From positions 62,001-126,000 of the IMG/VR virus record IMGVR_UViG_3300025098_000013: a stretch of 64,000 nt of DNA; one strand, written 5' to 3'. Made by a program: the position numbers and the translations under genes. Numbering within the stretch: the stretch's first letter is position 1; every line of letters begins with the position of its first letter. Positions 26,083 to 47,102 of the stretch are shown here, piece after piece. A model generated the notes under the pieces. The model searched no databases and had not been told where the DNA came from. It was given only the letters and a program-made list of their open reading frames with translations. The stretch is from a virus.

Positions 26083-27666
26083 ATGGGTAAAGAAGTATTT
26101 TACGGAAAGACATCGAGAGAGAAACTCTTAGAAGGTGTAGATGCATTAGCAGATGCAGTTGTAGTTACATTAGGACCACGTGGTCGTAACGTGATTATTG
26201 AAACTGATACAACACCACATATTACAAAGGATGGGGTTACAGTAGCTAAGTCTATTGAATTTACAGACCCAACCAAAAACTTGGGTGCTAAGGTAATCAA
26301 AGAAGCATCTCAACAAACTGCTGACAACGCAGGTGATGGGACAACTACCTCAACTGTACTTGCACGTGATATCTTTAAAAAAGGTATGGATGCAATTGAA
26401 AAGGGAGCTAACCCAATTGAATTGAAACGTGGGATGGATACTGCAGTAAAAGGTATTGTTAATAATCTTGTTGAAACCATTTCAACTAAAGTAGAAACTA
26501 ACGACCAAATCAAACAGGTAGCAACAATCTCAGCAAATGGTGATTCGGTGATTGGTTCTATGATTGCTGATGCAATGGACCAAGTTGGTCGTGATGGGGT
26601 AATTACTGTTGAAGAGGGTAATTCAAGTGATGATGAACTGACTATTGTAGAGGGGTTGGAATTCGAACAAGGATACCTATCACATTATTTCATTAACAAT
26701 CAGACCAAATTGACTTCTGAATTAGAAGACCCTATGATTCTTATGTATGATGGTCGTATTTCAGAAATGGATGACATCGTTGGTATCCTTGAGGGTGTAT
26801 CAAGTAAGAATCAGGCAATTGTAGTAATTGCTCAAGAAGTAGATGGGCAAGCGCTAGCTACAATGGTAGTTAATTCGGCACGTCAAACCTTAAAATGTGT
26901 TGCTATCAAAGCACCTGGCTTCGGTAACGAACGTAGTGAGATGTTGAGAGATATGTCTGCTCTAACCGGCGCTACTTTGTTTGGTGGTGTTGGTAAAGAG
27001 TTGGAAGATATCACAATGGATGACTTAGGGTCAGCTGACAAAGTAGTGGTTAGTAAATCTAAATCAGTAATCATTGGTGGTGCTGGTGAATCGGATGATA
27101 TCAAACTCCGTATTGACCAAATCAAGAATGAAATCGAAGAATCGAGTTCAGACTATGAGAAAGAAAAACTACACAAACGATTATCTAAGTTAAGTGGTGG
27201 TGTTGCAGTTCTCAGAGTAGGTGCTGAATCTGAAATCGAGATGAAGGAAAAGAAAGATAGAATTGATGATGCTCTACTTGCTACAAAAGCTGCAGTCGAG
27301 GAAGGTATTGTGCCAGGTGGTGGTTCTGCTCTAATCCACGCAAGTGATAGAATACATATGGGTGTTGATAGATTATCAGCTGACCAAGAAACCGGATTCA
27401 ATATTGTATGTTCTGCCTGTTACTCACCTTTTAATTCTATTTTAGAAAATGCAGGTTTAACTTATACACCAGAAGGTGAAACTCAAACTACTTATGGTTA
27501 TAATGTAGTGACTGAACAATGGTGTGATATGTTAGAAGTGGGTGTAATTGACCCAACCAAAGTAACACGAACGGCACTTGAAAAAGCTGTCTCAGTTGCA
27601 TCTACATTACTAACCACGGAATGTATGATTGTCAATGAGGTAGAGGATAGTGAATCGGAAGCTTAA
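26083..27666 (+). CDS. groL: GroEL chaperonin
   Basis: A 527-residue group I chaperonin subunit; ATP-driven protein folding in a ring capped by GroES. Equatorial motifs are VTLGPRGRNVIIE, DNAGDGTTTSTVLARD and EEGIVPGGGSALIH; the apical and intermediate domains are complete. It lacks the GGM-rich tail of bacterial GroEL and ends NEVEDSESEA. A 20-residue insertion-like stretch around YTPEGETQTTYGYN is present, as in other GroELs. Start follows AAATAAGTT. It probably folds phage capsid or tail proteins. Confidence 0.95.
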   Translation: MGKEVFYGKTSREKLLEGVDALADAVVVTLGPRGRNVIIETDTTPHITKDGVTVAKSIEFTDPTKNLGAKVIKEASQQTADNAGDGTTTSTVLARDIFKKGMDAIEKGANPIELKRGMDTAVKGIVNNLVETISTKVETNDQIKQVATISANGDSVIGSMIADAMDQVGRDGVITVEEGNSSDDELTIVEGLEFEQGYLSHYFINNQTKLTSELEDPMILMYDGRISEMDDIVGILEGVSSKNQAIVVIAQEVDGQALATMVVNSARQTLKCVAIKAPGFGNERSEMLRDMSALTGATLFGGVGKELEDITMDDLGSADKVVVSKSKSVIIGGAGESDDIKLRIDQIKNEIEESSSDYEKEKLHKRLSKLSGGVAVLRVGAESEIEMKEKKDRIDDALLATKAAVEEGIVPGGGSALIHASDRIHMGVDRLSADQETGFNIVCSACYSPFNSILENAGLTYTPEGETQTTYGYNVVTEQWCDMLEVGVIDPTKVTRTALEKAVSVASTLLTTECMIVNEVEDSESEA

Positions 27667-33607: not shown

Positions 33608-33818
33608 AAAAAGTGATATAAAACTAAATCAGCTAAATCTTATGGATATACAAATAGATGAACGTAATAATAGAATCAGAGTTATTAAAGATAACCATGT
33701 ATATAGTATAGACAAAGAACATCCTCATTATGATGTTATAGTAGATAACCTTTTAAATATAGGGAACTCTATAACCACATATAAGGATAAGGTTAAAAGA
33801 TTCTCTCCACATGGTTAA
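33585..33818 (+). CDS. hypothetical protein (77 aa)
   Basis: One of three consecutive ATGs (33585-33593) is the likely start, overlapping the previous gene. Core ERNNRIRVIKDNHVYSID. Not recognised. Confidence 0.45.
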   Translation: MMMTSSIKKSDIKLNQLNLMDIQIDERNNRIRVIKDNHVYSIDKEHPHYDVIVDNLLNIGNSITTYKDKVKRFSPHG

Positions 33819-34035
33819 CAAGAAGAATATAATAGACTTACATGGAGTAAGGCATGGAGACGTAGAAGAAGTCTTAGAGAATAACCTATTAGGGTATCAT
33901 GATACGGAAGGCTGGGAGATAATAACAGGCAATTCAACCTATATGATAGAGATAGTAGAGGAGTTTCTAAGGTTAAACCTATTTAAGTTCTATCGAACCT
34001 CTGATAACTATGGTAGAATTATATTAGCTCACTAA
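33811..34035 (+). CDS. stand-alone Smr domain protein
   Basis: A 74-residue Smr (small MutS-related) domain: IIDLHGVRHGDVEEVL, then WEIITGNSTYMIEIVEEFL. DLHG and TGNS are the family signatures. Smr domains nick DNA or cut mRNA at stalled ribosomes. Last gene before the 0.8 kb non-coding region. Confidence 0.75.
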   Translation: MVNKKNIIDLHGVRHGDVEEVLENNLLGYHDTEGWEIITGNSTYMIEIVEEFLRLNLFKFYRTSDNYGRIILAH

Positions 34036-34043
34036 GCTAATCG

Positions 34044-34061
34044 TAGGGTTATCGTACCCTA
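34044..34061 (+). other. hairpin
   Basis: TAGGGT, six-base loop, ACCCTA, just after the Smr gene stop. No T-run follows. Confidence 0.4.
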
Positions 34062-34116
34062 TCAGAGGACATCAGAGCTGGGAAGTGCTAGTGTAATTTC
34101 CACCAAATATTCAGAG

Positions 34117-34137
34117 ACCCCTTTATAGGGGTTTTTT
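34117..34137 (+). terminator. intrinsic terminator
   Basis: ACCCC, loop TTTATA, GGGGT, then TTTTT. It ends the long operon that finishes with the Smr gene. Confidence 0.75.
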
Positions 34138-34449
34138 ATGCCTATAAGGGTAATGATTACTCTTGTGGTCCGTACAAGGGTAAAATAACTACACATTTAC
34201 CCCCACTTTCCCCCACTTTACCACATTTTCTATCAGTCACTTAACAAAATGTGTAGTTTTTAAACAATGTGTTAGATTTATAACAAAATGTAAGGATAGT
34301 AACACATACCCCTCTCAGCCCTCAATCATTCATTTTTACCACAATTAACACAAACACACTTTCAGAAAAGGATACTATTACTTAACTACCACAAATTAGA
34401 CTGGTATTATGTGTCTTTCGCGCGAGCAAGCAAAATTTCTGACAGGAAA

Positions 34450-34477
34450 GTTATTAACAGCCCTTTGTGGATAACTT
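34450..34477 (+). repeat. composite repeat copy 1: GTTATTAACA-N6-TGTGGATAACTT
   Basis: GTTATTAACA at 34450-34459, six bases, TGTGGATAACTT at 34466-34477. TGTGGATAA is the complement of the DnaA box TTATCCACA. The identical arrangement occurs again at 34611. Confidence 0.7.
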
Positions 34478-34532
34478 TTTAGGGGTAAAATGTGGGTAGT
34501 CCGAGCCACCAAGCCTGAATATTGACCATATA

Positions 34533-34546
34533 TTAACATTTGTTAA
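34533..34546 (+). repeat. TTAACATTTGTTAA palindrome, copy 1
   Basis: A near-perfect palindrome of two TTAACA half-sites. Its exact reverse complement lies at 34709-34722. Confidence 0.6.
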
Positions 34547-34610
34547 TAGACTTACAATGGTTAGCCGCGACTTACAAATGAAACAAAGTGTTACAATTGT
34601 AACTATTAAA

Positions 34611-34638
34611 GTTATTAACAATGGGATGTGGATAACTT
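34611..34638 (+). repeat. composite repeat copy 2: GTTATTAACA-N6-TGTGGATAACTT
   Basis: Same two blocks with the same six-base gap, 161 bases after copy 1; the gap sequence differs, so the blocks are the conserved part. Confidence 0.7.
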
Positions 34639-34708
34639 AATGGCTAAATATTTGGCAATGTGGGTTATTTTTCGTATCTTAGTGGGGGGGTATATATAAA
34701 AAAAATAG

Positions 34709-34722
34709 TTAACAAATGTTAA
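34709..34722 (-). repeat. TTAACATTTGTTAA palindrome, copy 2 (inverted)
   Basis: Reads TTAACAAATGTTAA on the + strand. The TTAACA half-site is the same hexamer found in pairs upstream of eleven promoters. Confidence 0.6.
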
Positions 34723-34791
34723 TTCCTCTCAACCCTAGTGTTTACAGGGGTTAACGAATGATTTAGAATCGTTCTATATAAGGTGAATGGC

Positions 34792-34822
34792 TTGGATATT
34801 AAAGAATATTGTTGTATCTTAG
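34792..34822 (+). promoter_or_regulatory. Bacteroidota-type promoter
   Basis: TTG at 34792-34794, 20-base spacer, TATCTTAG at 34815-34822, four bases before ATG 34827. Confidence 0.7.
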
Positions 34823-34826
34823 TAGT

Positions 34827-35009
34827 ATGTTAAAAGATATAAAGGTTAAATACAATTCAAGATTAAAGAGTGTTTCATTTACTAAGGAGTCATCTATCAC
34901 TGATGAGGAGTTAGAGACGTGTATGGGGTATCTTTATTGGAGGTTTCGTAAAGAAGCTAATGATAGTGAGTTCTCTGATGATGGTAAAAAGCTAATATTA
35001 AAGATGTAA
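34827..35009 (+). CDS. hypothetical protein (60 aa)
   Basis: MLKDIKVKYNSRLKSVSFT, then an acidic helical part. Start 34827 is used because the upstream in-frame ATG (34809) lies in the promoter. Its own ATG is only four bases after the -7 box, implying a very short or absent leader. Confidence 0.5.
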   Translation: MLKDIKVKYNSRLKSVSFTKESSITDEELETCMGYLYWRFRKEANDSEFSDDGKKLILKM

Positions 35010-47075: not shown

Positions 47076-47102
47076 ATGTTGATAACTTTGTGGATAACTT
47101 AG

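Follow-up and report, generated by a model that had tools for sequence, protein, structure and literature searches.

A conserved, origin-like intergenic region with paired DnaA-box-like sites in a clade of T4-like phages

A viral contig of 178,076 bp has its longest intergenic gap in the window, the whole 64,000-bp stretch of DNA that we analyzed (positions 62001-126000 of the contig). The gap spans 34036-34826 (791 bp) and is bounded by an ORF end at 34035 and an ORF start at 34827, as placed by simple ORF calls and not by curated annotation. The gene-free stretch of the original prediction is real, and so are the duplicated AAGTTATTAACA-N6-TGTGGATAACTT with equal gap length (6 bp) and different gap sequence, the two oppositely oriented TTAACAnnTGTTAA palindromes, and the inverted C-rich/G-rich tracts (ACTACACATTTACCCCCAC near 34187-34205 versus GGGGTAAAATGTGGGTAGT near 34481-34500), which pair imperfectly. 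To these we add an upstream terminator, two phage-type promoters and the palindrome GTTACAATTGTAAC. The features of the locus, in window coordinates, are:

33811-34035, + strand: Smr-like gene of 74 aa with an IDLHG...TGNS motif, upstream border of the gap (homologues and motif)
34119-34141, + strand: putative intrinsic terminator of the upstream operon, stem CCCTTTATAGGGG then TTTTTTATGC
34200-34229, no strand: C-rich tract CCCCCACTTTCCCCCACTTTACCACATTTT (sequence)
34343-34359, no strand: conserved element AATTAACACAAACACAC, 105 bp upstream of the core (alignment)
34430-34441, no strand: core flank GCAAAATTTCTG, at constant distance from the core palindrome (alignment)
34448-34477, no strand: core composite 1, AAGTTATTAACA-GCCCTT-TGTGGATAACTT, two inverted DnaA-box-like half-sites (alignment)
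34533-34546, no strand: palindrome TTAACATTTGTTAA, containing TTAACAnnTGTTAA
34590-34603, no strand: third perfect palindrome, GTTACAATTGTAAC (sequence)
34609-34638, no strand: composite 2, AAGTTATTAACA-ATGGGA-TGTGGATAACTT, just upstream of promoter 1 (sequence)
34651-34683, + strand: putative promoter 1, TTTGG-N19-TATCTTAGT (match to the phage's own promoter consensus)
34684-34705, + strand: candidate R-loop/unwinding element, G-run GGGGGGG then TATATATAAAAAAAA (conservation and instability)
34709-34722, no strand: palindrome TTAACAAATGTTAA, mirror (reverse complement) of TTAACATTTGTTAA at 34533-34546 (sequence)
34792-34823, + strand: putative promoter 2, TTGG...TATCTTAGT, adjoining the downstream gene (promoter consensus match)
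34827-35009, + strand: small early-region gene of 60 aa, downstream border of the gap (homologues)

We take the 74-aa gene to be Smr-like from its motif; it had no Pfam match at E 0.01. Homologues lie directly before the gap in the related lineages G001 (66% amino acid identity), G003 (68%), G007 (50%) and G008, and the gap is found 3' of this same gene in five lineages. The 60-aa gene has homologues directly after the gap in G003 (38%) and G007 (34%), its position being taken by other small genes in G001 and G009. The gap is placed with a terminated operon on one side and an early gene cluster on the other. A terminator-like GC stem with a T-run is present at the aligned place in G001, G002 and G003, and tracts like CCCCCACTTTCCCCCACTTTACCACATTTT occur in G001 (C-rich) and G003 (inverted, G-rich). 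A terminator-bounded stretch of about 500 bp in the gap is conserved and contains neither genes nor forward phage-type promoters.

The contig codes for the T4-type portal gp20, the capsid protein gp23 and a T4 terminase, together with a replication set of PolB, a DnaB-type helicase, a RecA/UvsX protein, a 5'-3' exonuclease, RNR and a clamp loader. The same genome has T4-family replication proteins (PolB, DnaB-type helicase, RecA/UvsX and clamp loader) and, judging from these and the structural genes, the source virus is a T4-like myovirus. The best match of its PolB was Microcystis phage Mel-JY01 (about 48-50%), and no near relative at the DNA level was found in the phage record collection (50,697 records). 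The contig is probably circular or permuted because both ends have a common 471-bp direct repeat, located inside a collagen-like repeat gene. The closure of the genome falls in this GC-rich gene, 62 kb to the left and 52 kb to the right of the window, and the assembled length of its repeats may be wrong. Other phage genes code for a GroEL-type chaperonin, a Mom-family DNA modification protein and a Nol-like carbamoyltransferase (window 26083-27666; L004 16054-16815; L005 9183-11018).

Each composite in the gap is also an imperfect palindrome with the half-site AAGTTATnnACA. The genome has only two exact TTAACAnnTGTTAA sites, both in the gap, and a single exact copy of GTTACAATTGTAAC; one copy of GTTACAATTGTAAC is also present in G001, adjoining the G001 core. 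Four boxes in the gap are within two mismatches of TTATCCACA (two exact and two TTATTAACA), a cluster such as DnaA-dependent origins of the oriC type have. Evenly spaced direct repeats of the iteron type were not found in the gap, where the paired composites lie 161 bp apart with no tandem array. We simulated 3,000 sequences of equal length with the first-order composition of the gap itself, and none had two TTATCCACA, two TTAACAnnTGTTAA or four AAGTTATnnACA; the gap has all three. The sole other paired site in the genome consists of intergenic tandem boxes, TGTTGATAACTT-TGTGGATAACTT, at window 47077-47100, which may mark a second origin or overlap a promoter. Single box sites are located at window 35011 and 49785.

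A scan with the composite pattern recovered six relatives, three near (contigs of 172-178 kb) and three distant, and a PolB-profile search gave 80 contigs. Seven lineages, with PolB 79-100% identical, keep DnaA-box-like 12-mers (TGTKRATAACTT) in the gap; they form one clade and are not independent proof of function. The gap was the longest intergenic one in all six genomes or segments measured (window, G001, G003, G007, G009 and G010). G001 (L116, 167 kb) has 159 genes in common with the window at a median identity of 65.5%, and G003 (L124, 61 kb) has 53 at 65% identity. A 33-bp core block, AAGTTATTAACAGCCCTTTGTGGATAACTTTTT (composite 1 with TTT), is 100% identical in the window, G001, G002 and G003, the identity holding in three lineages despite protein identity averaging about 65%. 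The upstream element AATTAACACAAACACAC is also identical in the window and these three, with exactly 105-bp spacing to the core; a related AATAAACACAAACACTT is present in G007, and AATTAACACAAACACAC was not found in G008, G009 or G010. The motif GCAAAATTTyTG precedes the core at a constant distance in the window, G001 and G003, and the core flank GCAAAATTTCTG aligned at equal spacing in these three, G009 and G010.

In G009 and G010 the core is AAAGTTATTAACA-N6-TGTTGATAACTTTTTT, with the same geometry and a different spacer, and in G007 and G008 the boxes are tandem copies at the syntenic place. The seven lineages together have 27 AAGTTAT-type boxes with the consensus TGT(T/G)(G/A)ATAACTTT. A box 150-165 bp 3' of the core, near promoter 1, recurs in the window, G003, G007 and G010, the counterparts of composite 2 being single boxes in the last three. 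The core-to-promoter interval has lineage-specific palindromes (TTAACAnnTGTTAA, TTACAATTGTAA or CTTAAAGTAnnnCTTTAAG); the palindrome TTAACATTTGTTAA is kept in L129-L131. None of the gap motifs was found in the more distant Mel-JY01 record (PolB about 50%) or in G013, which may be incomplete. The longest gap of G013 was rejected as the same region and resembles a broken or frameshifted gene. We also rejected L178 (an Smr relative), L354 and L355 as the same region, the pattern matches in G033 and G030, whose context differs, and thyA as a locus marker, which was too unspecific. A DNA search of the 50,697 phage records with the gap region gave no match, and the 53-bp core alone gave weak short matches only.

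We called the promoters and the unwinding element from sequence matches. The phage promoter consensus, TTTGG-N19-TATATTAGT, has 15 candidates genome-wide (for example at window 21587, 22213, 35069, 47648 and 49844), about half of which have an upstream element TTTAACAATTTCTTAACATTA. Bacteroidota-type promoters have a form like this consensus; the host phylum is therefore probably Bacteroidota. Promoter 1 would correspond to the phage-specific promoter of a T4-type R-loop origin, and the same kind of promoter is present at this place in G001, G009 and G010; promoters aligned with promoter 2 were found in G001 and G003. The A+T-rich candidate unwinding element lies just 3' of promoter 1, at 34691-34705. 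The 30-mer from 34691 falls within the least stable 0.2% of the genome; in G009 and G010, the 30-mer downstream of the promoter is unsurpassed in instability across the fetched 16-kb segment. In five lineages (window, G001, G003, G009 and G010) TATATAAAAAAA follows the promoter and is preceded by a G-containing stretch; it is missing in G007 and G008.

A strand-composition change had been proposed for the gap. Locally this holds, the GC skew being negative at about 34100-34470 and positive to either side; genome-wide, the skew keeps its sign across the gap. The predicted skew minimum, as at an oriC, is absent from the gap and from the entire contig, along which the skew is positive, and skew at four-fold sites shows no switch at the locus. 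The one-sided positive skew is expected because nearly all genes of the contig are on one strand. For a one-strand genome with multi-origin or recombination-dependent replication, which T4 has, skew neither supports nor refutes an origin. In T4 itself, the skew shifts are located well away from oriA and oriC (PMC3016281).

The predicted feature exists, is conserved and resembles an origin. An origin is the best-supported reading because the noncoding layout is conserved in position and sequence despite widely diverged proteins, and on this comparative basis we consider it fairly likely that the gap is a replication origin of this T4-like phage clade. It is probably an origin, or a combined origin and early-promoter hub, that is primed by an R-loop. 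We propose that a protein, either the DnaA of the host or a phage factor that recognizes a similar site, would bind the core and the promoter-proximal box, causing DNA opening and/or activation of promoter 1. The first bases transcribed from promoter 1 would be G-rich, and the next 15 bp or so are the AT-rich, easily melted TATATAAAAAAAA. The G-rich transcript may stay annealed across the AT-rich segment as an R-loop and provide the phage replisome with a primer for rightward leading-strand synthesis, as at T4 oriF/oriG. The early genes would also be driven from the same region, and the upstream boxes could recruit an activator or initiator.

T4 oriF (ori-uvsY) and oriG (ori-34) are like the gap in having a T4-family replisome and a phage promoter followed by an A+T-rich unwinding element (PMC3016281). 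The promoter-plus-unwinding layout therefore matches, whereas the DnaA-box-like sites of the gap are extra, none being described for oriF/oriG. The two T4 origins are about 100 bp in length with little sequence common between them, whereas the gap has about 500 bp of extra conserved upstream sites. T4 oriE resembles the gap in its repeated 12-nt sites, iterons that occur at a syntenic place in related phages (PMC3016281). The oriE iterons are evenly spaced direct repeats, in contrast to the inverted pairs or single boxes of the gap, which are 150-165 bp apart and DnaA-box-like. Counting against an origin are the missing skew switch, the lack of the motifs in Mel-JY01 and the perhaps incomplete G013, and a core geometry that is not universal, G007 and G008 having tandem boxes and no TATATAAAAAAA.

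Because the promoters are conserved too, part of the conservation could be due to transcription control alone. A regulator from the phage or the host might bind the 12-mers and palindromes and switch the two promoters of the small early genes, with no origin in the gap. The two promoters of the phage's own consensus, the position of composite 2 or the matching box (G003, G007 and G010) a few tens of bp upstream of promoter 1, the TTAACA repeats before other phage promoters and the small, variable, early type of the downstream genes are all consistent with this. However, the most conserved element is about 200 bp from the nearest promoter -33 box, and the core-promoter distance is variable, yet the distance from the core to the further-upstream element is constant. 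Other promoters of the genome need just about 60 bp, and no lineage measured has a longer gap elsewhere in its genome or segment. We regard control of early genes alone as somewhat unlikely. An unrecognized small gene or structured RNA as the cause of the conservation is highly improbable. A 55-aa minus-strand ORF does overlap the core, but the identity spans all codon positions and continues past the ORF stop; the leader after promoter 1 can fold (z -1.2), but no better than shuffles, and no Rfam match was found in the gap.

A further reading, which overlaps the origin reading, is a mimic of the bacterial oriC, where host DnaA would bind the boxes, melt the AT-rich element and load the helicase for a start in the host manner. 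Like a bacterial oriC (a DnaA box cluster with a DUE), the gap is intergenic and has exact or near TTATCCACA adjoining an AT-rich unstable element. Apart from T. maritima, no analyzed origin has boxes more than two mismatches from TTATCCACA (PMC4285127), and the two exact and two 2-mismatch boxes of the gap agree with that rule. TTATCAACA is a reported or predicted box variant in mollicute and Cyanothece origins (PMC3322544, PMC4674748), and an oriC-like cluster in one Bacteroidia chromosome has eight TTATCCACA, three of them AAGTTATCCACA. In other viral contigs, similar composites lay among extra exact boxes in 15 of 34 cases, which include the window's own close relatives, compared with 9% of random positions. 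On the other side, the gap has few boxes and the phage has its own T4-type helicase, polymerase and clamp loader. No DnaA domain was found in the phage, the search having covered the DnaA C-terminal domain in three phage records. The clade boxes are mostly TTATCAACA or TTATTAACA, non-canonical in most relatives; 20 of the 27 have T for G at the fourth base of TGTGGATAA (TGTNRATAA), unlike the Bacteroidia cluster. The DnaA-box identity in the original prediction holds for the two exact TTATCCACA in the gap and fails in G007 and G010, whose gaps have no exact box. Binding of host DnaA at the boxes is plausible from their form, its use by the phage is possible at most, and an oriC mimic as such appears unlikely.

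We rejected a copy of the host oriC, the composites occurring in 18 bacterial contigs with two Bacteroidota cases (L139, L149) that are not oriC. Boxes beside dnaA were not enriched at about 30 Bacteroidia loci. A genome-wide search for box pairs in 60 Bacteroidia gave two matches, one being the oriC-like cluster beside nadA, and nadA linkage of a box cluster was seen at 2 of 30 loci; TGTTAATAACTTGTTRA occurred in 2 of the 60 genomes and was not origin-like. In a Bacteroidia genome, L319 1260-1590 has about a dozen TTATnCACA boxes upstream of nadA, probably the chromosomal oriC, and L327 has a smaller cluster upstream of nadA. The arrangement GTTATTAACA-N3/4/6-TGTGGATAAC is present in many unrelated viral contigs (L090-L128), nearly always intergenic and often among further exact DnaA boxes. 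Several Clostridia genomes (L132, L136, L138, L140, L146 and L147) have a conserved noncoding GTTATTAACA-N6-TGTGGATAAC with TATACACAGTTTATAMACA before it.

To our knowledge, hardly any origin has been defined for T4-like phages of hosts other than enterobacteria. Comparative methods do not readily reveal T4 origins, given how little sequence these share with each other; here, a single short block of conserved sequence points to the likely origin across a whole uncultured clade and gives exact bases for mutation. The review of T4 replication initiation nowhere mentions DnaA (PMC3016281), and the remark that DnaA use would be unusual for T4-like phages was fair. We tentatively put forward, as a somewhat doubtful possibility, a hybrid origin in Bacteroidota T4-like phages, where host DnaA or a mimic phage protein would bind the paired boxes and trigger a T4-type origin with R-loop and unwinding element. 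If true, a phage class regarded as DnaA-independent would be tied to the replication control of its host. The conserved region offers a way to test for sensing or use of the host initiator DnaA by a T4-type phage.
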